Assembly (NCBI GenBank): GCA_947503275.1
Contig: CANNCZ010000002.1
Span: forward strand, 124,001 to 188,000
Origin: an uncultured Erythrobacter sp.
GTDB lineage: Bacteria > Pseudomonadota > Alphaproteobacteria > Sphingomonadales > Sphingomonadaceae
Direction of reading: 5' to 3'
Length of the DNA stretch: 64,000 nucleotides
Position numbers and translations under genes: made by a program
The notes under the pieces: model-generated
What the model saw: only the letters and a program-made list of their open reading frames with translations
Database searches by the model: none
Told to the model about the DNA's origin: nothing
Shown here: in pieces, positions 26,249 to 59,008 of the stretch
Numbering within the stretch: position 1 is the stretch's first letter
How the letters are laid out: every line of letters begins with the position of its first letter

Positions 26249-26626
26249 CTATTCTGGATCGTCGGGAACGGGTGATCGCGTGGGTGCGGCCGGCTGCGCC
26301 GGCTGCTCAAGATCTTCGGCAACATCTTTTCGCAATGCTCGAGGACGGCCGCCGAGTTCAACTTGCAGCCCAGCAACGCGGCCTTTGATGTGCGTTGCCT
26401 GCCACGCCAGGCCAAAAGTCATGACCAGGCAAATGAGCGTCACAACCACATGCGGATCTGTCAGGCTGTCCCCATGCGTCATGTGATCGAAGCCGCGAAA
26501 CAAGGTTATGATGCCAACCATCACTGAAAGGCTGCGGATCTCTTCGGCGCGCAAGCCAATGACTTCGCCCCAAAGCGCGGCGATTGGGGCCCATAGCCAA
26601 CGGACAAAGCGCGCAATGGCTTGCAT
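26249..26626 (-). CDS. Small membrane protein, holin candidate
   Basis: Two hydrophobic segments; start overlaps the endolysin stop (TAATG-type junction). Confidence 0.55.
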   Translation of the reverse strand: MQAIARFVRWLWAPIAALWGEVIGLRAEEIRSLSVMVGIITLFRGFDHMTHGDSLTDPHVVVTLICLVMTFGLAWQATHIKGRVAGLQVELGGRPRALRKDVAEDLEQPAQPAAPTRSPVPDDPE

Positions 26627-27279
26627 TACATGCCGCTCCGATACAGCCGCTCTTCGGCCGCGCGCCGGCGCACAAGCCCTTTCATCACCCGGCCGCCGGC
26701 CTTGTTCCAACGGCTGAATTCACGCGCGGCACCGGCATGATCGCCGGCAACGTGCTTGCGCGTCAGTGTCGCCCGCCCGATCGCACCCGTGTTGTAGTGA
26801 AAGCTAACCAGCGCATCGAATTGCCCCTGGCTTGTGTTGGCGATCGCGCTGCCCAAGGCCCGGACAACATCATCGGCATAGCGACGATAATCGTTCGTGG
26901 CCCGTTCATCGCATTGCTTTTGGGTCCACACAGTCCCCTTGCGGATCTTGCCACCGTTGAAATGGTCGCGCCCTGTTGACCCCCAGCCAATCGTCCACGG
27001 ATCGCCGCCTGTGCCCGGATCTGGATAGGCTTGGATCATGCCATCGCGCCGCAAGCGCGCGCAACCTTCAAACTGTTTGATCAGCGCCTCGCCCACTTCG
27101 CTAATGCGGCCGGGCACCTGGTTGTTTTCAGATTGGCTCGGCGCATCAGGCACCGCCTTGCCCTCGATCGCTTGATCGATCGCATCGTCCAACTGTGCAA
27201 CTTCGGTTTGCCGAAAGCCACGGCCAAGCATTTGGCGAACAGTCGCAAAAATCGATTGACGGTTAAGGGTCGCTGTCAT
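26626..27279 (-). CDS. Endolysin, GH24 (T4-type) lysozyme
   Basis: LIKQFEGCARLRRDGMIQAYPDPGTGGDPWTIGWG; C-terminal GRVMKGLVRRRAAEERLY. Confidence 0.92.
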   Translation of the reverse strand: MTATLNRQSIFATVRQMLGRGFRQTEVAQLDDAIDQAIEGKAVPDAPSQSENNQVPGRISEVGEALIKQFEGCARLRRDGMIQAYPDPGTGGDPWTIGWGSTGRDHFNGGKIRKGTVWTQKQCDERATNDYRRYADDVVRALGSAIANTSQGQFDALVSFHYNTGAIGRATLTRKHVAGDHAGAAREFSRWNKAGGRVMKGLVRRRAAEERLYRSGM

Positions 27280-40314: not shown

Positions 40315-42550
40315 CTGAGTTACTTTCCTCAATGTTCTGGACGACAAGCGCGATCGTTGCCGGCAAGGGATCATCGCTGCGCCAGGTGATCCGACCGTCA
40401 CGGTCAAATGTGCTGTCGATCAACGCTTCGATATCGCCGTCAACCAGTGGGATTTGCTGATCCATGGACTGCCCTGCGCGGCGCAAGATGAGCTCTTCCG
40501 GTGTTGACTGATCGATGGCCTGACTTTTCAAACCCAACGTCTCTAGGACGCGAACAATCGTCTTCGTTGCGCGCTGACGCAGCCCAACAAGACTTGGCTG
40601 ACGGTCGCGCGGTTCTGGACGCATACTGCGTGCAATCGCCGAGTAGCCAAGGCCAACAACCAGCGTGTAATCGTCTTCGGGAACATCACCTTGCGGCAAC
40701 GTCACCTCCCCTTGCGCACTCACAGTGACGCTTGGAATAACGACACCGCCAGCCAATATTGCGACGTCTTGCCCTGCAAAATGCTCAAAACCACTGAACT
40801 GGAAGCTTCCGCCGCTCGCCTCGATGCGGGTGCCGCCATCGACGTAAAAGCTTTCCTGTGTCGGTGTGCCGAGCTCGCGCCAGGCGGTTTGCCGCCAAAC
40901 CTCTTTGACTGTTTGCCCGGCGCTATTTTCGCGCTCGATCAACGCCCATAAATCTTCGGTTTTGCCGTTGCTGTTTACAGCGCTAACGATCGACAAAGCG
41001 CGCGCACCGCCGCCCAAAATCCAACGCGTGAAGCCGCTAATATCCGCCCGCGTTTTGGCATGGCAAATAACCTTGCCATCGCCGCGCAGACCAAATCCAA
41101 ACGCGTGGGGCACTTGCTGCCGCGCCAGCTGCACAATGCGTTCACGGGTGATTTCGCGGCTTGTCGCATTCAGATCTTTGGCATCGTAGCGATCGCGCCC
41201 AAAATCATAATCAGCTGCGCGGATCCGCCGCCCGCCCCGCTCCACAAACAGCGTTTCGGTGCCTTGCTTGACGGGAAAGACTTGCTCGCTGCCGTAAAAA
41301 CTCTGCTCTTCGGCTTCGATATTCGTGCCTGAAAACGCCTCGCTGCTATTGAGCGGCCGGATCGCCATTTCAACTGAGGGCGTGCCGACCAAAAGGCCGC
41401 GATCATTGCTGATCCAAAGCGGCTGATCAACAAAGCCCACCGTGCGGCGAAACGCCAAGTCAGTCGCACGCAAACCGCCGTCTGTGAACTGCGACCAATT
41501 GACCCGGCCGCCGCCAAAATCGCCGCTAACCGATCCAAAAACATCAAGCGGCGTCACATGGATCAACCGCCCAAACTTGATGGTCACAAGGCTTGGCCAA
41601 CCCTCGGCTTCGCTGAACGCCTGATGCGCCCATTTGTAAGTCGCAACACTTGTGAGGCTATCGGGCAGACGGCGCAGAACGGTGGCTTGCGCAGAATTTG
41701 CACTTGCAACGCTGGTGATTTGCGCAACGCCGAACAGACCGTGAAGATGCGTCCATTTGACACCGAACGGGCCTTTGTCATTGAGCAAATCTTTCTTCAA
41801 TTGCCCGTCGAAATAACTGCCCTCTGTGTGTTCAGGCTCAACAGATCCCGTGGTGCCGGCCGTGGCAGCCTGATAGACATTGCCGCGATTGCGCACTTTG
41901 TCGCCGATCGCCACGTCTTTCATTCCGCCTTCCCACTGGGTGATATTGGCGAAGTCTTTGGCCTCGAGGCGAATGAGAGCGCCCACATGACCATCTGCAA
42001 AACCTGCATTCCCGCTCAGCGTGATATTGCCGATTACACCGCTCGCGCTGACAACTCGGCTTTCGTCCGAATTGGTATCAAGAAACGGGCCGTTCTGATT
42101 GTCGATCGTCTCGAATGTGAACGTACTCGGCGTGTCTCTACGCAGGGCGCTTGGCGGGTGTTTTTCATGGGCAAGATAGAGCCGATCAAAACTCTGATGG
42201 CTCGACACAAATGGCACATCTGAAACCGTGTAAGGCGTAGCCACCACAAATGGCGCATCTGGAGCCGAAAGCAACGGTGCCTCATTGGTATAGAACCGAA
42301 GCGTCTGCTCCCCCCATTCCAACACATATTCTTGCGTGATCGACGGCCGAAAGGCCGTAAGCCATGCGGCGGTGTCATCGGCAGACCCCACCCGCTCAAA
42401 GCCTTGGCGTTTGACCAATGGCCCTTCGTTGATGGCAACCCAATTTTCACACGTAGCGAGGCCGAACGCGTATTGCTCCGTGTCAATCCGACCATCCAGG
42501 TGCGGATCGAGCTCGCCGGCCATAAAGCCGGTCTGAATGTGCCGGCGCAT
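40307..42550 (-). CDS. Tail tubular protein B-like / nozzle protein
   Basis: MRRHIQTGFMAGELDPHLDGRIDTEQYAFGLATCENWVAINEGPLVKRQGFE typical of phage stabilisation/nozzle proteins. Confidence 0.8.
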   Translation of the reverse strand: MRRHIQTGFMAGELDPHLDGRIDTEQYAFGLATCENWVAINEGPLVKRQGFERVGSADDTAAWLTAFRPSITQEYVLEWGEQTLRFYTNEAPLLSAPDAPFVVATPYTVSDVPFVSSHQSFDRLYLAHEKHPPSALRRDTPSTFTFETIDNQNGPFLDTNSDESRVVSASGVIGNITLSGNAGFADGHVGALIRLEAKDFANITQWEGGMKDVAIGDKVRNRGNVYQAATAGTTGSVEPEHTEGSYFDGQLKKDLLNDKGPFGVKWTHLHGLFGVAQITSVASANSAQATVLRRLPDSLTSVATYKWAHQAFSEAEGWPSLVTIKFGRLIHVTPLDVFGSVSGDFGGGRVNWSQFTDGGLRATDLAFRRTVGFVDQPLWISNDRGLLVGTPSVEMAIRPLNSSEAFSGTNIEAEEQSFYGSEQVFPVKQGTETLFVERGGRRIRAADYDFGRDRYDAKDLNATSREITRERIVQLARQQVPHAFGFGLRGDGKVICHAKTRADISGFTRWILGGGARALSIVSAVNSNGKTEDLWALIERENSAGQTVKEVWRQTAWRELGTPTQESFYVDGGTRIEASGGSFQFSGFEHFAGQDVAILAGGVVIPSVTVSAQGEVTLPQGDVPEDDYTLVVGLGYSAIARSMRPEPRDRQPSLVGLRQRATKTIVRVLETLGLKSQAIDQSTPEELILRRAGQSMDQQIPLVDGDIEALIDSTFDRDGRITWRSDDPLPATIALVVQNIEESNSDA

Positions 42551-46519: not shown

Positions 46520-46898
46520 TAATTACTCCCTTCACAGGCAGAGGCGCGGACTTTGTAGGCCATTGGTCGCGCCATTCTTCATTTTCTCGATATTCGACTT
46601 CAAGAGTTTTTGCGCACGCGACACAAAGGGTGGGAGCATATAGCTCTTTCCCATCTTCATGTTCCAAGCACGGGATGACCAAATGGCTGTCGCAAAAATA
46701 TTTTTCACAATTGTAATCCCCCCATTCGATCGAGCTGTCACCACCGCGCACATCGTGCGTTCCGTGCATCTGGCCGCAAGCGCTAGAGACACCACGATAG
46801 ATCCTCTTGCTACAGCCTTGATGGTCGCATTGCCCTTGTATCGCGTAACCGATTTCACGACCTTGGCTGTCTTCTCCGCAGTACGCCCAGCCCATCAT
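46512..46898 (-). CDS. Cys/His-rich (zinc-binding-like) phage protein
   Basis: MGWAYCGEDSQGREIGYAIQGQCDHQGCSKRI... multiple C/H pairs. Confidence 0.6.
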   Translation of the reverse strand: MMGWAYCGEDSQGREIGYAIQGQCDHQGCSKRIYRGVSSACGQMHGTHDVRGGDSSIEWGDYNCEKYFCDSHLVIPCLEHEDGKELYAPTLCVACAKTLEVEYRENEEWRDQWPTKSAPLPVKGVISA

Positions 46899-48538
46899 GC
46901 ACCCCCGCTTATGGCTTCGGCCTGGGCAAGATCCTTAACCCCGCCCGCCACGTCTTTGAGCAATTCAGCATTGACCGCCGCGCTTTGGCTTTGCTCGCGC
47001 GCGCCGCGCAATTCCGCGACCGCCTCGGGCGTGCGAATATAGCTTGGACGGACGCCGATATCCTCAAGCGTGCCACGCGCCATTTCATCGATATCAACCG
47101 TGTCCATCACATCTTCCTTGATGCTCGCCAGCGGCACAATGGCATCGATGCCGCGCATGGATTTTTGCACGTTCTCAGCACGCGCCATTTGCGCAAGCGG
47201 GTTTTCATAATCGATCACCGGCCAGGCTCCCGCTTCGCGGACAACTTCGGGAAACGGCTCGATCTGGCCCGCCCGCAACGCCATATCCAAATCGCGCTGG
47301 GTCATTGGACCCTGCTTTTCGGTGGCATATCGGCTTGCGAACGGACGCACCAACACGCCTTGTTTGGATATCCGTTCAAGCACTTCGGGTATGGTCATGC
47401 GCGAATTGGGATTGGTCAACGTCGCATAGAATTCCTCAAGGAACGCGGTGCGAACCGTGGATTGTTCATCCTGGATCATATCGAGCGCATAGGGGATGCC
47501 CTGTTCACCGCCCGGCATGCGCGCGACCATTGGCCGGCCGCTTTCGTCAACAAACCCCGGATTGATACCGCCGGGCTTTGTCGAAAGGCTTGTCGCACCG
47601 TAATCATCGCTGAACAGCAAAGCCGGATCCACCGCCTTGTGCGCCGCCCGCAATGTGGTGTGCTTCATGGTGTTTAGCCCCTGAATATTGGGCATCACCT
47701 TGAACGCTGGCGACCGACCGTAGATTTCGCCGGCACTGGTCATGTGCCGAGAAACTGAAACCGGCATCGTGTTGAACCCTGCCCGGCGCACATAGACTTT
47801 TTCGTCTGTAGCCAGGTATCGGCTCGCGATGGGGAAGCGGTTGTGATCCATGCGCTCACGGTCAAATGTTGTGTTCGGAGCGACCACATGCAGGATCTCG
47901 AACTTCTTTTCGGATCCTTTCTTTTCGCGCAACGCGTCCAGCATCTTTGGCGTCAAATTCTCTTCACCGAAAAGCTCTACGCATTGATCGGCGGTGCGCT
48001 CAAATTTGCGGTGCACACGGTTGACGCGGCCCGCAAAATCAACATCGATCCAAACTTCGGAAAGGTGCAGGCAGCGATAGATCATGCCATGCTTGCCAGC
48101 CTCAGACCACACCGGGCTTGTGCCGTATCGGCCAAGCTGGTCCCAATCCTCATTGGTCGCAACACCAAACCCTGTGTGCGCGGCGTGACGGATCGCATAC
48201 AAGCGCTTGCCGGCGCGATCGCACCATTCTTTGACCTCTTGCCGCTTCATCAAATCCTGATCGAGGAACCGCGGCTTGATGTAGTCTTGCCCTTCAGGTG
48301 TCGTAATCGCCACCCCTGCGGCCGCGAACCGTTCATTGGCGGTAATGTGCGTGGCATCGAAGTTTTGACGCCCGCGAATTTGCCCTGGACTGCGCTTGTC
48401 GAAACCGCCCGCCCCGTTGGGGAAACGATCATCAATCTCGCGCCAGGCATTTTCCCAAGGCGTCCGCTCATTTGCCAAACGCTCTTGCGTTTTCAGATCC
48501 GCTTTTGCCAGATCCTTATCCTGTAATCTCTCAATCAT
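46895..48538 (-). CDS. Head-to-tail connector (portal), T7-like
   Basis: NERTPWENAWREIDDRFPNGAGGF...GVAITTPEGQDY. Confidence 0.85.
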   Translation of the reverse strand: MIERLQDKDLAKADLKTQERLANERTPWENAWREIDDRFPNGAGGFDKRSPGQIRGRQNFDATHITANERFAAAGVAITTPEGQDYIKPRFLDQDLMKRQEVKEWCDRAGKRLYAIRHAAHTGFGVATNEDWDQLGRYGTSPVWSEAGKHGMIYRCLHLSEVWIDVDFAGRVNRVHRKFERTADQCVELFGEENLTPKMLDALREKKGSEKKFEILHVVAPNTTFDRERMDHNRFPIASRYLATDEKVYVRRAGFNTMPVSVSRHMTSAGEIYGRSPAFKVMPNIQGLNTMKHTTLRAAHKAVDPALLFSDDYGATSLSTKPGGINPGFVDESGRPMVARMPGGEQGIPYALDMIQDEQSTVRTAFLEEFYATLTNPNSRMTIPEVLERISKQGVLVRPFASRYATEKQGPMTQRDLDMALRAGQIEPFPEVVREAGAWPVIDYENPLAQMARAENVQKSMRGIDAIVPLASIKEDVMDTVDIDEMARGTLEDIGVRPSYIRTPEAVAELRGAREQSQSAAVNAELLKDVAGGVKDLAQAEAISGGA

Positions 48539-49552: not shown

Positions 49553-51067
49553 TCACGAAAAAACATCAAAATCACTGTCGAGCTTTATCGGTGCAGACCG
49601 CCTTGGCTTGCCTCGAATATCGGAAATTACATGTTCACCCTCGAGCGCAACGTATTGCTCCGCATCGCAAACGTGGGTGTAAATTGTGTCGGCGATTTCT
49701 AGGTGCCCGCGCGTTTCACCATCGGGCATGTCAGCCTTCCGATAATGATAACCGCCGAGGTGTCCGCGAATGAGGTGCTTGCAGCTGGGATCGACCGCAT
49801 ATCCGCCGCGCTCACTCATACAGCTCCAGATTGCCTCGTTGCGCAGCGATGCCCTGTTAGACTTCGCTTTTCGCACCCGGTGGCCCAATCCTTTTTGAAA
49901 AGCGCGCACCCAATCCATTTCGCTGTCGGCGCGATCAGCTGCCGACCAAGCAGCCGGATCCCCCACAATGCGCAGGTTTTCGGGCTGCAAATTGGGGAAG
50001 TTGTCGGCAATCATGGTGCGGACCATTTGGCCGGCCGCTGTGGGGCCAATTTTCATCAGCGTCTTGCCATCTTCACGCATCATCACCGCCTCGCGCAACG
50101 TGCGGAATTCACCCATCGCCAACCTTTGAGACGCGACGGCGGCCGCAAATAGTCCCTGGTCGAAGCCAACCAGCAATGGCCGCGATGGATCCCATTCGAG
50201 TTCGCGCACATGGTCGCGGTAATCGAATTGCGGGTTGACCGGCTGCCCGTGCTGCATCGGCACAAACTTGTTGTCGATCATCCGCGCGACGTAATCGGGT
50301 TTGTGCTTGTTGGCGGCCGCCTGAATTTGGTAATAGCCTTTCTGCAAATTGTGCAGGTTTTCAGCGTCAGGCTCCCGGCCGCCAGGCTGCAAGAACACCT
50401 CGAGCAATTCGCGACCATCCAAGAGGTCGCGCAGCTCGTCGTCCATTTCGCCCAAGTTTTTGTCGATCGCGAGCTTATAGACCCAATTGTCCATATAGGG
50501 CGCGTTCAGCGAAAGGATGATTTGCGGATCCACCATCAAGTCAACATCGATGCCGCCGCGACCCACACGGCCGGTAAGGAACGATAGCAAGTCACTCGGC
50601 TGCAAATCGGCCTCATCGACCATTACAGCGCACACCTGCCAACCGCGCGTCACTTCCTCAACCGATCGATCCCCGATCGCGCGCATTTCCATTTCAAATT
50701 GGCAAACGTCAGTGGCGTTGCCGTGCTCATCTTCGGCCAAAATCAGTGTGAGTTTGTGCGTGTATGGCTGTTTCCATGTGAATTTTCCGAGGGTTTCGGG
50801 GTAAAGGTCAAACCAGCTCTTAAGAGTGTTCTTCTCGAGGTTTGGGTAGGTTTCACGGATCACACCGACGCGCGCAGTCCGCCACATCACCCCGCGCGCA
50901 TCACGCTTACCACCCTGCTTTTTCGCAACTCTCACCAAAGCGCGGAGAGCCGTCATCGTCTTGGCAGATCCAACCGGGCCAATGATGACCTTGATGAATG
51001 CCCGACTGAGCAAAAACGCATCGGAAATTGGACCCGGCGAGTTTAGCCGGCGCACATCTTCGGTCAT
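49553..51067 (-). CDS. terL: Terminase large subunit
   Basis: Walker A VIIGPVGSAKT; VMVDEADLQP; nuclease region LLVGFDQG. Confidence 0.88.
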   Translation of the reverse strand: MTEDVRRLNSPGPISDAFLLSRAFIKVIIGPVGSAKTMTALRALVRVAKKQGGKRDARGVMWRTARVGVIRETYPNLEKNTLKSWFDLYPETLGKFTWKQPYTHKLTLILAEDEHGNATDVCQFEMEMRAIGDRSVEEVTRGWQVCAVMVDEADLQPSDLLSFLTGRVGRGGIDVDLMVDPQIILSLNAPYMDNWVYKLAIDKNLGEMDDELRDLLDGRELLEVFLQPGGREPDAENLHNLQKGYYQIQAAANKHKPDYVARMIDNKFVPMQHGQPVNPQFDYRDHVRELEWDPSRPLLVGFDQGLFAAAVASQRLAMGEFRTLREAVMMREDGKTLMKIGPTAAGQMVRTMIADNFPNLQPENLRIVGDPAAWSAADRADSEMDWVRAFQKGLGHRVRKAKSNRASLRNEAIWSCMSERGGYAVDPSCKHLIRGHLGGYHYRKADMPDGETRGHLEIADTIYTHVCDAEQYVALEGEHVISDIRGKPRRSAPIKLDSDFDVFS

Positions 51068-51651
51068 TTATCATCCTCTCGATGATCCAAAACCTTTGAC
51101 CGACCCTCAATCGTTCCGGTTCTCGCCTCTTTCATTTCGCCAATCTCTTCGATGACGCGCACGCCCTGGATTGTGTGATCGACTTGCACCGGCTGATCGC
51201 CGTGGAAGATCTTGCGCACACCTTCGGCGCTTCGCAGACGCATACTTTCCGCCTCGAAAATGGTCATTTGCTTGTTGACCGGATCCATTTGGCGGCTGCG
51301 CTCAACCATTTCTTCAGCCGTTTGGGCCATGATCTTCATCATCACCACGGCAGGATCCGGTCCGAACTGGCGCAAATACGCCTGCACATCGCGATTGGCG
51401 CGGTTCTTTGCTCCTTTGGGCCGGCCCTTTTTGCGAATTGCGCGCACATGCCGCTTGATCGACAAAGCGCCAGCATCGATGCCCAGCTCTTCGCGCGCCT
51501 CCAAAACCTCTTCAGCCGTGATCGGCTCGAAAAGATCATCTTGCTCCGCGTCGATTTCTTCGCTGAGCGCCTCATCGATCAGCTTGGCGCTATCCGCCGC
51601 AGCCTTTTCCAAATCGACTTTTCCACCGGCTCCTACGGGGTCAGTTGACAT
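51064..51651 (-). CDS. terS: Terminase small subunit (putative)
   Basis: Upstream of terL with ATGA overlap; KGRPKGAKNR basic motif. Confidence 0.6.
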   Translation of the reverse strand: MSTDPVGAGGKVDLEKAAADSAKLIDEALSEEIDAEQDDLFEPITAEEVLEAREELGIDAGALSIKRHVRAIRKKGRPKGAKNRANRDVQAYLRQFGPDPAVVMMKIMAQTAEEMVERSRQMDPVNKQMTIFEAESMRLRSAEGVRKIFHGDQPVQVDHTIQGVRVIEEIGEMKEARTGTIEGRSKVLDHREDDK

Positions 51652-52285
51652 AAGCACCCCCAGCTCTAGCGTGGCTTTCCTGACCTGCATGGAGCCCGAC
51701 AGCCCCCCACAGTTTCAGAACTTCACCCCGACCCGCTGGCGCTTTCGCGCCTTGGATCGAGACACACACCCTACCCCGACCCGATGCGCCCGCTTCAACT
51801 TTGGCGAGCCTGCGCAATCGTGCACTTCGATCCGCCTGAATATTGATCAGCGCGGTAAAACCCGATCTGAAACCGGATCCAAATTCTGGCTCGGTCCAGC
51901 GACCAGGTGATAGGGATCTGGCCGGGCGCGAATGGGGGCATGGGGGGGTCTGTGGCGCGATGGTGGCCCGCGTGAGCTTTCGAAGCTTACGATCAGCCCT
52001 GTAAAGCCCAGCCTTATCAGCCTGTTGCACCGATCTTTTCGACGCGATCCTTTCGACGCGCCCTCGCTGAGCGCTGAGAAACGGCAGAATTCCGCCATTC
52101 TTGCGGCCGGTGCCAGCTGCGCGCATCGACCCACCAAAAACCCGGAAACTTTCGCCGCCACGCCCGAGATTTAGAGTGTTGATCGACCCGATCAGGCGCA
52201 GCCGCATCGATCCGCGCACCAAATCAGCATATCCACTGCCTAGAATATGCACGCCGTCAGGCTGCACACCACGGCCAAACACAGC

Positions 52286-52533
52286 GGTTCCGCAGCGGAA
52301 CCATGCGGAACCAGCTAGGGAACCAATAACCCTATGAAAACTCAGTATATAATCAATTGGTTCCGTGGTTCCGCTAATTACGCCTCGCGCATATACGCGC
52401 ATGTGCGCACACACACGCACACGCATCAATGTTTGACAGAATGAGCGGAACCATCGGAACCGACCAATAAAGACAGCAATATCAATCACTTGATGGTTCC
52501 TAAAGTGGTTCCGCACGGTTCCGATACGGAACC
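52286..52533. promoter_or_regulatory. Mirror-symmetric 12-box GGAACC/GGTTCC array
   Basis: Starts 52286,297,307,319,359,367,447,456,495,507,517,528; orientations T,A,A,A,T,T|A,A,T,T,T,A (T=GGTTCC, A=GGAACC). Confidence 0.95.
52386..52426. repeat. 41-bp alternating purine-pyrimidine (Z-DNA-prone) tract
   Basis: CGCGCATATACGCGCATGTGCGCACACACACGCACACGCAT, strictly alternating. Confidence 0.95.
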
Positions 52534-52664
52534 ACCCCCCGGACCCACCACGCGCCAGAATTCGGCTGCACAAATCTTGGCATCCCAAACGGGCCGGGGT
52601 CAGGGATAGGGACGCGAGCGGGGCATATTTGAACTGTGATATTGATAGTGTGCACGTGCCCGTC

Positions 52665-52837: not shown

Positions 52838-53785
52838 ATGGCTAAGATCGACACTTACGAGACTGTCACCAACAGCATTATTCACCAGCTCGAGGCCGGG
52901 ACCAAACCATGGGTTTGCGATTGGGCCACTGGCGGAATTCAAATGCCGCACCGCGTCACTGGCGACATGTATCGCGGCATCAACGTGGTTTTGCTTTGGA
53001 TGGCGGCGCAAGAAAACCGCCTCACCGGCCGCACATGGATGACCTTTAAGCAAGCGAGCAGCCTTGGCGCGAAGGTCCGCAAGGGATCCAAAGGCACGCG
53101 CATCGTGTTCTTTAAGAAAATCGATGTGAAGGACCGCAACGCCAGCGATGCTGACGCTACTGTGCAAATTCCGATGCTCCGCACTTACACAGTGTTCAAC
53201 AGCGACCAGATCGACGATTTGCCCGCCAAGTATGCAACGCCAATCGTGCAGCCAAACCCCAGCATTGAACGGGACCGGGTGAACGAAGCCGCATTGCGTT
53301 CTAGCGGCGCCCAAATCACCGAAGGCGGCGCAAGCGCTCATTACACGCCCAGCACTGACATTGTGACCATGCCGGATTTTGAGCGCTTCACCAGCTCTAG
53401 CGGCTATCTTGCCACGCTTGCCCATGAGCTTTGCCACTGGACTGGCCACAAATCGCGGCATGATCGCTTTGGCCACAACAGCAAGGCAGATCGTGCCAGC
53501 TACGCTTTCGAAGAGTTGGTAGCGGAAATGGGCGCGGCGTTCATCGGCTCGCAACTCGGCATTGTTGGCGAGCATATCGAAAACCACAGCGCTTATCTGT
53601 CGCATTGGCTTAAGGTTTTGAAAGAGGACAAGCGCGCCATTTTCCGCGCTGCCAGCCTTGCCCAAGCGGCCGCCGATATGGTGCTGGCTAACGCTGGCGA
53701 GCTGCCTACGCTCGAGGGCGAGGAACCGACCACGGAGAGCATCAAACCCGCTCCGGTGATGTTGCAAGCCGAACTGGCACTTTGA
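52838..53785 (+). CDS. ardC: ArdC-like antirestriction protein (ssDNA-binding N-domain + zincin)
   Basis: N-terminal KPWVCDW...GINVVLLW...FKQASSLGAKVRKGSKG; HELCHWTGHKSRHDR (HExxH). Confidence 0.88.
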   Translation: MAKIDTYETVTNSIIHQLEAGTKPWVCDWATGGIQMPHRVTGDMYRGINVVLLWMAAQENRLTGRTWMTFKQASSLGAKVRKGSKGTRIVFFKKIDVKDRNASDADATVQIPMLRTYTVFNSDQIDDLPAKYATPIVQPNPSIERDRVNEAALRSSGAQITEGGASAHYTPSTDIVTMPDFERFTSSSGYLATLAHELCHWTGHKSRHDRFGHNSKADRASYAFEELVAEMGAAFIGSQLGIVGEHIENHSAYLSHWLKVLKEDKRAIFRAASLAQAAADMVLANAGELPTLEGEEPTTESIKPAPVMLQAELAL

Positions 53786-53896
53786 CCATCCCCGCAGCCG
53801 CTTGGAGCGATCCGAGCGGCTATAGGGAAGGCCATCAAGCCCCCCATCAAAAGCGCCGGCACAGGGCCGCGCTAGGTCGATGAAAGGACCAGACAA

Positions 53897-54235
53897 ATGG
53901 ACACTTACAAAGTCATAGTGGATAGCGGCTTGCCAAGCGGGACGCGCGCAATCGGTTGCGGCTGCGATGCCGAAAACACAATCAGCGATCTTACCGCCAT
54001 TGGCGACGCCATACTTACGCCTAGCGATCCGTCGCCGGCCGGCCGCTGCACGCATTGCGGTTGCTTGGCCTATGCCGAAACCGAATTGCTGAAAATGGAG
54101 CGCGCCGCGCCATCTATGCTTTCCGCGTTGAAGCAAGCCGAATTGTTTATGGCGGGTTTTGAAGACTGCGACGCGCAAGAAGATATGGCCGCGCTCGAGG
54201 CCGTGCGCGACGCCATCACGAAAGCGGAGGGCTAA
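53897..54235 (+). CDS. Small early phage protein with CxxC motif
   Basis: CTHCGC zinc-knuckle-like; shares leader with ardC. Confidence 0.6.
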   Translation: MDTYKVIVDSGLPSGTRAIGCGCDAENTISDLTAIGDAILTPSDPSPAGRCTHCGCLAYAETELLKMERAAPSMLSALKQAELFMAGFEDCDAQEDMAALEAVRDAITKAEG

Positions 54236-54238
54236 GCC

Positions 54239-54517
54239 ATGAACCAATTCACAGCCTACACCCCGCGCGATGGCGACACCATCCACTTGCGCTTTGAAAG
54301 ATTGCCCGAACGAACCGGCCGCTATGTCTTGGGCATTCACCGCGACGGTGCGCGCGCCAGTTTGACCCGGTGCGCCACGAACCGAAAAACCTTTGTTGAT
54401 ATCGAAAGGCTGATTGAGCTTTACGACGCGGGCACTTTGACACCGATAGACGCCGTGCAACTCGAGCGCGATGCGCAGATGCGCTTGCGCTTCACCAGCA
54501 ACACTAAGGAGGCTTGA
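54239..54517 (+). CDS. Small early phage protein
   Basis: 92 aa, SD sequence, co-directional. Confidence 0.55.
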   Translation: MNQFTAYTPRDGDTIHLRFERLPERTGRYVLGIHRDGARASLTRCATNRKTFVDIERLIELYDAGTLTPIDAVQLERDAQMRLRFTSNTKEA

Positions 54518-54520
54518 GCC

Positions 54521-54802
54521 ATGATTGACGACAAAACCGGACAACTGATTGAGGCAGGCGCGTGCCTTTGGGAAGCGTACTTGGACAAAACAATTTCGGT
54601 TACAGCGCTTGCAGCCGCAGATGAATGGCGGGAAAGTCAGGGCACAAGCTCTTTGCGCTTGATGATTTTGAACCAAGCCGAAAACTGCCATAACGCTTGG
54701 TGGGCGCTTCATAAAGATGCGCGAATGGACGAGCCTTTCGATTGGGAATTCTGCCCGCAATTTCTTTCCAACTGGATCGAAAAAGGTGGGCTTACTCAAT
54801 AA
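54521..54802 (+). CDS. Small early phage protein
   Basis: 93 aa, AGGAGG SD. Confidence 0.55.
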   Translation: MIDDKTGQLIEAGACLWEAYLDKTISVTALAAADEWRESQGTSSLRLMILNQAENCHNAWWALHKDARMDEPFDWEFCPQFLSNWIEKGGLTQ

Positions 54803-54828: not shown

Positions 54829-56832
54829 TCATACTTCGGCCCCTTCGCATTCTTCATCAAACCAACGCTTGAGCGTTTTCTCTTTGCTCGCGTTGGGCAG
54901 CTGCTCTTCATCGAACACATGGCACAGCGGCACACACACCGCCGATAGCTTGCGCCGGCCGAACGCGACCTTGCGCGCACGCACCGCCATCGGGAACCGC
55001 TCAAGCACAGCGTCATAAATCTCTGCCCAGCCTTGCTGCGATCCCTGAAACAGATGCGCCAGCGCAGCTTGCCCAGGAGCGATAGCCAGGAAGCCAGGGA
55101 AGTCCTTATCGAACGCCTGTGTGCCCCACCGCTTGCCTTTGTCCTTTTTCACCCGGCCTTCGGTATCGAGCTCTTCGTCATAGAACGTGCAATTGACCAG
55201 CTTAAGGCCATACTGCCCTAACCGCTCATTGATGCGCTTGCCGGCATCTGGATCGCGCAGCGGCTCAATAGCGTGATCGAGAGCATCGCCAATCCAAGTG
55301 GCCAGCGCCACGCGCTCATCGCCGCCGCGCGCCTGCACCTGCGCACCCAATAGATGATCGAGGCAATCTGCGTGCTGCGGCCGCTCTTGCGCAATCTCAC
55401 GCATCCGCTCGGGCCGGCACATATCCGCCCAATGCAACACATCTTCGTAATCGGGCAGGCCATCCGGCGTGTCGTGATCGTGGATCAACACATCAGCACA
55501 TGCCAACAGAGTGCCAAACTGGTCGCAAGCGCGGCCGTCATGCCCCGCTTGTCGCAACGCTTCGTGATACTTGGCTTTGGTCGCCGCTAATCGCGCCCAC
55601 CCGTCGACCATGCGCCGCAACAGCTTGCGGCCGATGGTCGGGAGATTGTACGCCTCGAGGCTCGGCTCGCCCGCCCAATCGGCAGGAAACGGCATCAACT
55701 CACCAATCGCAAGGCGGCTTTTGTCTTGCGCTGGCATCGATGGAATATTGATCGATGAAAACAGGAACGAACTGCGGATCGAAAATTCGTGCGCATTGTG
55801 ATCCTGCCCGCCACGGTGGCCTTTGTCGCCTGTGAACGAAAGCCGCATCAGCTCAATCACATCGTTAACCTTGCGATTGTCAGCGGATGCCTCAATTTCA
55901 TCGACCAGAACCGGCACTGTCGCTTGACCTAGGCTCTGCCGGATCGCTGCCCCGGTTGCGTTTGCGGTGCGGAAACAACCCCGGCCAAGCAGCTGGTGAA
56001 GAGCCTTACCTTCGCCGTTCAAATGCGATTTGCCCGTGCCGCGTCCTCCGGTTAGCCAGATATTGGGACGAACCGGCAGCGCACCGCCCACCAACGCACT
56101 ACCAAGCCAACCCAGCAACAGGCGAGGATCTAGGAGAGAGCGCCGCCAATTCCACGTCCTAAACAGGCCCGGCAATCCATCACGGCCAATTTGGCCCGAT
56201 ATCAAAAGCGCCGCGGCTTCCGGTCCAACCGGGTCAGGCCATGGGCGGGGGATAGGATCATCCCCGGCATAGACGAAATCACCCAGCACGCCGCAACTCG
56301 CCCAATTCCACCGGCGCAATTCGCCTTCAAGGGTATGGTCGGAATGCAGGATCTTATCGCCACAATGCAGCGCAAGCCCGCCTGCATCATGCCGATGCGC
56401 TCCCCGGCCGCGCTTGCGATCTGCGGAACTGAACCGCCCGCGCCGCACACATTCACCAATCAACGCGGCCGTTGCTTCGGCTTGATCCCATCCAATGATT
56501 TCAGAAGCGCGATCTTTCGTCGGCTTCGACCACTTGGGGAACTGCTCTTCCAACCATTCTTCGTCACCGAACAGCGCGACCATGCCGTTTTTGCCGTGGC
56601 GATTATTTGCCTCGAGGCCGACCAGCTGCTTGTTGCGGTCTAGGTAAAAGCATGTTTGCTTACCATCCTCTGTGGATCGAATGCCCAGCGGCACAATCGG
56701 GCAGCTTTTCCAATCAATCGGCAACTTGCGCTGCTTGCCCTTTTCGGGTGTCGCATCGCCTTCTTGCGCCATTGTCGGTGCGTCCTTTGGATTGTCGAGC
56801 GCATCCTTGATTGAGGCAACACCATCGGTCAT
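54829..56832 (-). CDS. P-loop replication helicase/ATPase
   Basis: Walker A GGRGTGKS; VPVLVDEIEAS; ATG overlaps upstream stop. Confidence 0.72.
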   Translation of the reverse strand: MTDGVASIKDALDNPKDAPTMAQEGDATPEKGKQRKLPIDWKSCPIVPLGIRSTEDGKQTCFYLDRNKQLVGLEANNRHGKNGMVALFGDEEWLEEQFPKWSKPTKDRASEIIGWDQAEATAALIGECVRRGRFSSADRKRGRGAHRHDAGGLALHCGDKILHSDHTLEGELRRWNWASCGVLGDFVYAGDDPIPRPWPDPVGPEAAALLISGQIGRDGLPGLFRTWNWRRSLLDPRLLLGWLGSALVGGALPVRPNIWLTGGRGTGKSHLNGEGKALHQLLGRGCFRTANATGAAIRQSLGQATVPVLVDEIEASADNRKVNDVIELMRLSFTGDKGHRGGQDHNAHEFSIRSSFLFSSINIPSMPAQDKSRLAIGELMPFPADWAGEPSLEAYNLPTIGRKLLRRMVDGWARLAATKAKYHEALRQAGHDGRACDQFGTLLACADVLIHDHDTPDGLPDYEDVLHWADMCRPERMREIAQERPQHADCLDHLLGAQVQARGGDERVALATWIGDALDHAIEPLRDPDAGKRINERLGQYGLKLVNCTFYDEELDTEGRVKKDKGKRWGTQAFDKDFPGFLAIAPGQAALAHLFQGSQQGWAEIYDAVLERFPMAVRARKVAFGRRKLSAVCVPLCHVFDEEQLPNASKEKTLKRWFDEECEGAEV

Positions 56833-57884
56833 GCGGCAGCATCCCTCAATTTACACCAAGCGCTCACGCAAATGCCTACATCGGCATCGGTGCGCAGCCT
56901 TTCGCACTGTTCACAAAAACGCTTGGCCCCGGATTTAACCGCGTCATAACGATCAAGCGGTGCATCCTTTGGCCCGGATCGAACCAACTGCGGCGCTGGC
57001 TTTCTCAATGCGACTTTCCGCGCGGGCGTCACGACACCGGCCATTGCATTGCGCACCGCCCTTTCGAAACTAACCACGACACTGAGTTGCGGGTGATGCG
57101 ATTGCTCAACAATCGCGGCTGCGCGCCACTCTTCCTGTGTTTTGGAGCCGAGTTTAGCGCGAATTTTGGCCAGCTGCTCTTCGGAAACAACATTGCCCCG
57201 CGCGGTCGAACACAGGGCCACGATGCCGGGAAACAGGGTTCCGGCGTATCGCAGAGATTGACCGGCAAAGGCTTGCTGCAAAGTGACAAGCGCCGCTTTG
57301 GTTATCGCCTCGCCCTTACGTCGCCAGCTGCGCTCTAACCCGCCGATGCAGCCAATCGTATCAAAACCCCAAAACTTCCAATTGGTGTGCGCTGCCAGCT
57401 GCAATCCTGCATCGGCAATCGCATCGCGGAGCGCGATTGCTGCTTCGTCTCCGCTCGCCAGTTTGCCTTTGAACTTATCAAGCGAGGTCAGCGCATTTCG
57501 CTTTGTGTTGATCGCCGTGAATGCAGCCGCTTCTTGCTGCAAATCTTCATATTCACCAACGATACAAGGCAATTCGTCGATATCACCGCGCAGCTTGGCC
57601 GCTTCAAATCGGTGTTGACCATCGATCACATACAGCTTGCCGTCGCGCCGCGACACAACCAGCACTTGGCACAAATCCCACCGCCATTGCGCGGCTATTT
57701 GCCTGATCAACGATTGGCTTTCACGGCTTTCGATTGATCGCTGATACGCCGCGTCAATGTGCAGCTGCGCTGGCGCGACGAATTCCAACGCGGGCTTAGC
57801 GCCCATCGCTGGCTTCATTACTTCTTTGTCGAATGCGATTTCCGTCATCACGCAGCCTCCTGATTTTGGAGCGCGCGCACCCAA
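56829..57884 (-). CDS. ParB-like N-terminal domain protein (DUF6551-type)
   Basis: VDAAYQRS-like LHIDAAYQRSIESRESQSLIRQIA; VIDGQHRFEAAKLRG. Confidence 0.75.
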   Translation of the reverse strand: MGARAPKSGGCVMTEIAFDKEVMKPAMGAKPALEFVAPAQLHIDAAYQRSIESRESQSLIRQIAAQWRWDLCQVLVVSRRDGKLYVIDGQHRFEAAKLRGDIDELPCIVGEYEDLQQEAAAFTAINTKRNALTSLDKFKGKLASGDEAAIALRDAIADAGLQLAAHTNWKFWGFDTIGCIGGLERSWRRKGEAITKAALVTLQQAFAGQSLRYAGTLFPGIVALCSTARGNVVSEEQLAKIRAKLGSKTQEEWRAAAIVEQSHHPQLSVVVSFERAVRNAMAGVVTPARKVALRKPAPQLVRSGPKDAPLDRYDAVKSGAKRFCEQCERLRTDADVGICVSAWCKLRDAAA

Positions 57885-59008
57885 TCATTGATATCTTTAA
57901 CCGGCTTGCCGCTCACCTTTTCAGGTGGGAAAACCAGCTGGCATTTGACGCCGCGCGCTTGTTGTTGTCCAATAACCCGCTCGAGGCCGGCCGTGTTGGG
58001 TTGCCCGTCTGCATCCACGTCGCGATCTGCCACAATGACGAGGGGCCCGCATTGCTCCGGCAATATGATGGCGCCCATATTTCCCAGGCTGATCGAGCAG
58101 ATGATGCGCGCCTCTGGCTTGATCATGCGCACGGCCACGGCATCTTCGGGGCCTTCGCAAACATAGATCGGCTCGCCTTCGGGCATATCGTGCATCGACT
58201 TGCCGCTGGCCCCCTTGTTAATCGGGATAAACCCGCCCCACTGGTTGCCAAGGATCCTCTTGCGGTATCCGTTGCGCTCTTTTTTGCTCAGATCAGGCGG
58301 CACAGCTATTCCGCGCCAACCGGTCAAAAACCGCTCAAGATAGACGCGGTGCGTGCCATGATATTTGCCAGTGGGCAGATAGACACAGCACAGCATAGCC
58401 GGGTGTTTGCGCTGGGTTGGATCATGCCAGATCATCGGATGAAACCGCAGCGAACCGGGCCATTTACCCAATGGCCCTTTGCCAAGGCCACGGCCGCGCA
58501 AATACTCTGCCGCGCCGCTGCCATTCATGGCTTCGCCCGATAGAAACAAACCTTTTGACTTTTTCGCTTTTGTCGCACGGCGCTTTTGGTCTTGGCGGTG
58601 CAGCTCTTCGGCGCGCGCCTTGGCTTCGGCCGCACGGCGCTGCCTTTCCTCCTGGCTGACTTGGCGGCGCTCGCCGCTTGATGGCCGGCCCAGGCGACGG
58701 CGCGCTTCGTCAAACGCATCTGCCGCACTTAGGCCCAGCTTTAAGCGCAGAAGATCCAGCATATCGCCTTTCTCTTCGCCTGCGGCGCAATTGCCGGCAT
58801 CGATCCAACGCCCCATCTTTGGACCGCTCAAATGGACCCATGCGCTTTCGCTTTGGCCATTGTCGGGGATGCCCGAAAACATCCATTTCTCGCCAGCGCG
58901 CCGACCATTCGGCAACAATTCAACAGCAAGGCTTTGCGCCAATGCGTTCAATGCACCCGTTAACTCGGCGGTGTCATCGATGTATTGGGGATCGCTCATT
59001 TGGGGCAC
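57848..59008 (-). CDS. Toprim-domain (primase-like) protein
   Basis: IYVCEGPEDAVAVRMI...LVIVADRDVDADGQPNTAG. Confidence 0.8.
   Translation of the reverse strand: MPQMSDPQYIDDTAELTGALNALAQSLAVELLPNGRRAGEKWMFSGIPDNGQSESAWVHLSGPKMGRWIDAGNCAAGEEKGDMLDLLRLKLGLSAADAFDEARRRLGRPSSGERRQVSQEERQRRAAEAKARAEELHRQDQKRRATKAKKSKGLFLSGEAMNGSGAAEYLRGRGLGKGPLGKWPGSLRFHPMIWHDPTQRKHPAMLCCVYLPTGKYHGTHRVYLERFLTGWRGIAVPPDLSKKERNGYRKRILGNQWGGFIPINKGASGKSMHDMPEGEPIYVCEGPEDAVAVRMIKPEARIICSISLGNMGAIILPEQCGPLVIVADRDVDADGQPNTAGLERVIGQQQARGVKCQLVFPPEKVSGKPVKDINDWVRALQNQEAA

Follow-up and report, generated by a model that had tools for sequence, protein, structure and literature searches.

The question raised by this locus is what twelve copies of a short box, GGAACC or its inverse GGTTCC, set out in mirror order, are doing in a podovirus-type prophage of a sphingomonad, where they lie in an apparently non-coding stretch of about 1.1 kb. 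Our answer is that the prophage most likely starts its replication at this array, which would be read by its Rep protein with one Rep hexamer on each arm and two forks leaving in opposite directions, and we give this reading a probability of roughly 0.8; a replication origin had already been among the options named in the first-pass annotation of this DNA. Below, the window means the whole stretch of 64,000 nucleotides that was analysed. To the left of the array, on the minus strand, are located the terS-position gene, terL and the portal gene, and to the right come plus-strand ArdC and small ORFs and then, on the minus strand, the genes of Rep, of a ParB-like protein (DUF6551) and of a Toprim primase.

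46895..48538, minus strand: portal / head-tail connector, podovirus type
49553..51067, minus strand: terminase large subunit, TerL (phrog_2)
51064..51651, minus strand: terS-position gene just upstream of terL, with a GRPKG motif; named terminase small subunit (TerS) by position
52286..52533, no strand: whole 12-box GGAACC/GGTTCC array, proposed replication origin from its conserved layout in relatives
52838..53785, plus strand: ArdC antirestriction gene; together with three small ORFs it separates Rep from the array
54829..56832, minus strand: Rep, 667-aa D5-type helicase/initiator, proposed binder of the array (structure model, Foldseek, box covariation)
54832..55389, minus strand: Rep C-terminal domain, residues 482-667, proposed to read the box, with residues 621 and 630 in a beta-hairpin
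56829..57884, minus strand: ParB-like protein (DUF6551), encoded between primase and Rep and lacking wide conservation among relatives
57848..59008, minus strand: primase (DUF7146 + Toprim_3), first gene of the replication module

The product of the terS-position gene has no family match in Pfam, and in some relatives a small helix-turn-helix-like ORF is found between this gene and terL (L015; L017 9624-9992). ArdC and the small ORFs together occupy 52838-54802 of the window, and an ArdC-like gene is also present near the array in L014.

All twelve boxes were recovered at the positions reported in the first-pass annotation, with start-to-start spacings of 11,10,12,40,8,80,9,39,12,10,11, which are mirror-symmetric within 1 nt, and with box orientations that are reverse-complement-symmetric as reported. 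The array holds over a third of the 34 GGAACC/GGTTCC copies in the 64 kb, and at most 3 copies per 248-bp stretch are obtained in 200 first-order-Markov shuffles of the window, with no hexamer of any kind rising above 6 per 248-bp stretch in 20 window shuffles. None of 200,000 random 12-site layouts is mirror-symmetric within 1 nt. In the window, both the number of boxes and their mirror layout are far beyond chance. A second cluster of such boxes is not found in the 3.4-Mb host genome, where a three-box match at C2:669369 lies in the apparent end of a reading frame. The parts of the array are as follows.

52286..52372, no strand: arm 1, six boxes at 52286(-), 52297(+), 52307(+), 52319(+), 52359(-) and 52367(-)
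52325..52358, no strand: AT-rich spacer within arm 1, candidate unwinding element (sequence and 52-array average)
52373..52446, no strand: central region with an alternating purine-pyrimidine tract, possibly Z-DNA-forming
52447..52533, no strand: arm 2, six boxes at 52447(+), 52456(+), 52495(-), 52507(-), 52517(-) and 52528(+)
52462..52494, no strand: AT-rich spacer within arm 2, candidate unwinding element (sequence and 52-array average)

The arms form an inverted repeat (52286-52325 / 52494-52533, 83%), in accordance with the earlier description of arms that keep their boxes and have diverged in their spacers. Averaged over 52 arrays, the AT content peaks 50-90 bp from the centre in both directions, which corresponds to the ~40-bp spacers within the arms, and is about background in the centre itself. 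Alternating purine-pyrimidine steps reach 0.90 in the centre of this phage, with a mean of 0.79 over the 52 arrays versus 0.55 in the flanks. This combination of AT-rich arms and an alternating centre is the least explained feature of the array, and it departs from the published PICI plan. The GC skew shows no switch at the array and gives no origin signal. Outside the boxes, short conserved flanks are seen at about 52220-52280 and 52580-52610 of the window and again in L010-L019; the flank towards rep has CCCCGGCCCGTT and the one towards terS a stretch containing GGATAT, and they may belong to the origin or represent a late promoter.

We then present the layout in the relatives of the phage, which were collected as TerL relatives from viral contigs and genomes and were scanned without assuming any motif. 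On the whole, about 55 related prophages and phages have the same layout of two sets, usually of six boxes, around a centre of ~75 bp, and nearly all TerL relatives with enough upstream sequence have such a cluster about 1-2 kb upstream of terL. The relatives include prophages from Sphingomonas, Novosphingobium, Erythrobacter and the like, and the clusters share a mirror plan of roughly x-11-12-41-8-75-8-41-12-11-x, and the modal box count is six per side when up to one mismatch is allowed. The boxes agree with one another inside each single array and vary by lineage (GGAACC, AGAACC, GCAACC, GTAACA, GGGAAC, CGTTGTG, GTTGCAC, GTAGCAG and others). A strict test for the four-box core, requiring a tandem pair of boxes spaced by 8-10 bp and the inverted pair at a distance of 50-110 bp, is positive in only one of 100 shuffled 20-kb sequences. 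The first-pass annotation had seen a selected symmetric array best explained by protein binding, and had named a lack of box conservation in homologous prophages as one refuting outcome; with the layout conserved in about 55 loci, that outcome is not observed. Nearly all related loci also carry the families of TerL, Rep, portal, primase and the terS-position gene. The first box lies at most 500 bp from the Rep stop in 38 of 57 loci, and the distance from the end of Rep to the array is 2.3 kb in the window, with ArdC between, and over 2.5 kb in five relatives. One relative, L080 (5240-9440), is rearranged, with the array and the terS-position gene before primase and Rep, and terL after.

The more distant phages BPP-1 and BcepC6B keep only a 2+2 core, with boxes AAACGAGG and GGACGATA. 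In BPP-1 (L122, NC_005357), four AAACGAGGC boxes at 26606-26710 make up a 2+2 mirror core with a palindromic centre, near a P4-family primase gene, and this core is a candidate origin for BPP-1. In BcepC6B (L121, NC_005887; join 42414-42415 / 1-101), the deposited linear record opens inside the first of four GGGACGATA boxes, and this start may be either a physical end or a chosen opening point.

Since the box word changes between phages of similar hosts, the protein that binds the array is probably encoded by the phage. The main rival to the origin reading is that the array is a packaging site (cos or pac), where the DNA would be cut in the centre and TerS would occupy the boxes flanking the cut. 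In P1 pac and SPP1 pac, short boxes flank a central stretch close to terS, and terminase or pacase subunits bind both sides of the central cut (pacL and pacR in SPP1); the geometry here resembles that of P1 pac. Moreover, the array is close upstream of the terS-position gene in relatives (median about 500 bp), and stays with it in L080, and the BcepC6B record starts inside a box. To separate TerS from Rep, box-protein covariation was computed across 31-34 phages as box distance given TerL distance. The partial correlation is +0.49 for Rep and +0.33 for primase, against -0.16 for TerS. The Rep value was equalled in none of 300 label permutations, which ignore relatedness and array-rep linkage and are therefore support, not proof; linked inheritance of the neighbouring array and Rep could be behind part of the correlation. 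Pairs of close phages point the same way. L051 and L048 share 80% in TerL, 76% in TerS, 86% in the portal and 95% in the capsid, yet have different boxes (GGAACC/AGAACC) and no more than 44% identity in the Rep C-terminal domain; likewise L017 and L025 share 70% in TerS and 28% in the Rep C-terminal domain, with different boxes.

Single columns of the Rep alignment are more telling than a sliding-window covariation along Rep, which brings out no single sharp domain. Residue 630 is T in all 8 AGAACC phages and R, S or W in all 18 G-first phages, and it is the only one of 600 Rep columns perfectly separating A-first from G-first boxes, also in L053, L029 and L051, the phages seeming to break the tree pattern. 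Residue 621, on the strand paired with 630, ties for the best column on the second box base, and structure models of Rep place both residues in a C-terminal beta-hairpin. As judged from these sequence comparisons, the box tracks Rep and not TerS.

The presence and absence of the array show a similar picture. Among TerL relatives with other replication systems, the complete genomes of Ss1 and Y3 (O/P type) and of MEP301 and Pmp11 (O/DnaB) have no such array anywhere. Further Rep-bearing loci were taken from wider genome searches; among them, L183 has Rep and an array beside an unrelated terminase (PF03354/PF20441), and L184 and L187 have a tyrosine integrase, Rep and a smaller array with no terminase nearby. 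These last two (L187 8510-9772, L184 597-2470) are small integrative elements with a tyrosine integrase, a Rep relative and a shorter GGGACAG array, and may possibly be satellites or integrative replicons. Besides, the 2+2 core persists with terminase small subunits of different types, namely Sf6_terminase in BPP-1, Terminase_2 in BcepC6B and another one here. No array is seen at the divergent Rep loci L142, L177, L178 and L181, nor at L175. L027, with TerS and TerL but neither Rep nor array, had been considered as a natural knock-out and was set aside; it carries little weight, being what is left of a prophage beside chromosomal genes. Hardly any plasmids carry Rep, and TerS and the ParB-like protein used as queries gave no matches in viral contigs. 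Packaging had been our initial reading, prompted by arrays that precede terS in relatives and by the one close to where the BcepC6B record starts, and was dropped because the boxes failed to follow TerS and arrays are missing from TerL relatives with other replication systems. The array is probably not a packaging site, which we hold to be unlikely, and the lean of the first-pass annotation towards TerS and pac is less well supported, as the array persists beside Rep with an unrelated terminase or with none. That the array has a dual use, as an origin that is also cut or bound by the terminase, would suit its place between rep and terS in most relatives and the BcepC6B record start inside a box, but no positive evidence of TerS recognition is found and arrays occur without this terminase, so that we consider it very improbable.

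Two other proteins might occupy the boxes. A repressor or activator could fill them and loop the DNA, making the array a large operator for late or early genes, and the tandem, helically spaced boxes between the replication and late operons would suit such cooperative binding. However, a one-way promoter does not need six-by-six mirror symmetry, no small regulator family is common to most loci within 10 kb, and the box tracks Rep, which makes an operator quite improbable. The first-pass annotation had also leaned towards ParB, and the ParB-like gene (56829-57884) does sit in the replication module, where its product might bind the array as a partition centromere; but this gene is outside the families common to at least 10 of 67 related loci and the array is nearly universal, and a centromere appears to us the least credible of all these readings.

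For Rep as the reader of the boxes, the structure model has a mean pLDDT of 91.5, and in Foldseek comparison with the PDB it matches D5-type helicases, including the SaPI5 primase-helicase 7ola and PriRep1 with dsDNA 7pds, with a probability of 1.00 and E about 3e-6 at modest TM-scores of 0.25-0.42. By its predicted fold class, Rep is a D5-type helicase, the helicase kind of SaPI Rep. The C-terminal domain alone has no significant fold match in the PDB, and since this is so, calling it a winged helix would be a mere reading of its helix-helix-hairpin order of elements. The analysis establishes the array, its conservation, its tie to Rep instead of TerS, and the fold class of Rep; for the origin we infer the binding by Rep, the hexamer on each arm, the melting sites and the bidirectional start. 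The C-terminal domain would read each 6-8 bp box, and each arm of about six boxes would seat one hexamer; with the arms pointing opposite ways, two helicases would be loaded in opposite orientation and give two forks. The strands would first come apart in the AT-rich spacer of each arm, and the alternating centre may take up torsion or serve to separate the two hexamers. Weighing against the origin are the 2.3 kb between Rep and the array here and the over 2.5 kb in five relatives, the L080 array next to terS with Rep downstream, the possible linked inheritance of array and Rep, the Rep loci without an array, the lack of a GC-skew switch, the missing PDB match of the C-terminal domain alone and the BcepC6B record start, which would suit packaging.

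If the origin reading is true, it gives a concrete origin for BPP-1/BcepC6B-like temperate phages and many sphingomonad relatives, extends the SaPI/PICI replication scheme to complete phages, offers dozens of naturally occurring pairs of an initiator with its matching site, and shows twelve sites and one protein domain shifting specificity in step. One box per helicase subunit is the simplest reading, and the opposite placement of two hexameric helicases on duplex DNA becomes directly testable. More tentatively, and here doubt outweighs confidence, these arrays may represent a widespread class of phage origin, a 12-site mirror platform with six boxes per arm for loading a Rep double hexamer, where the conserved Z-DNA-prone centre is a working part and all 12 sites change with the Rep reading domain, giving each lineage a private replication code. 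In the literature searched, we found no description of such a class.

Among known systems, P1 pac and SPP1 pac differ in that the boxes here follow Rep and not TerS, and the symmetry here is much stricter. Satellite phage P4 shares a D5/P4-class primase-helicase initiator acting on short iterons, and in the relatives BPP-1 and BcepC6B a D5_N enzyme is encoded beside the 2+2 boxes. The P4 sites are two and lie apart (ori/crr), unlike the one mirror-symmetric site here, where Rep is without a primase part and the primase is a separate gene. The SV40 and papillomavirus origins (T antigen, E1) are alike in that inverted short sites load two hexameric helicases, with fewer sites in a compact palindrome. 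There the origin is read by an N-terminal domain (PMC7581432), and SaPI Rep binds iterons just downstream of its own gene via its C-terminal domain, apparently as two hexamers (PMC7581432). In PICI origins, which lie 3' of rep, an AT-rich region has an iteron set on each side, and plasmids can replicate from PICI segments with pri, rep and ori (PMC6092414). The first-pass annotation did not recognise the architecture, which goes too far: SaPI/PICI satellites are known to have paired opposite iteron sets on the 3' side of the gene for the helicase-initiator (PMC6092414, PMC7581432), although the literature searched describes none from these phages or with this fixed geometry. The SaPI/PICI origin is similar in its two sets of short iterons around a central region (PMC6092414), in a primase gene that precedes the one for the helicase-initiator, and in iterons that go with Rep, their reading by the C-terminal domain being proposed here from covariation; most relatives also have the array close to Rep on its 3' side, at a shorter distance than in the window. 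The differences are that a PICI is a satellite without phage structural genes, whereas here terminase, portal and virion genes adjoin in complete temperate phages; that the spacing here is fixed within a few nt across very diverged phages; that the AT-rich DNA here is in the arms, around an alternating purine-pyrimidine centre which is not AT-rich; and that in this phage rep and the array are about 2.3 kb apart, with ArdC in the interval. Because its centre is not AT-rich and the element is a complete phage, we do not file the array as a PICI origin. By analogy, it most likely works like a SaPI/PICI origin with its own fixed geometry.
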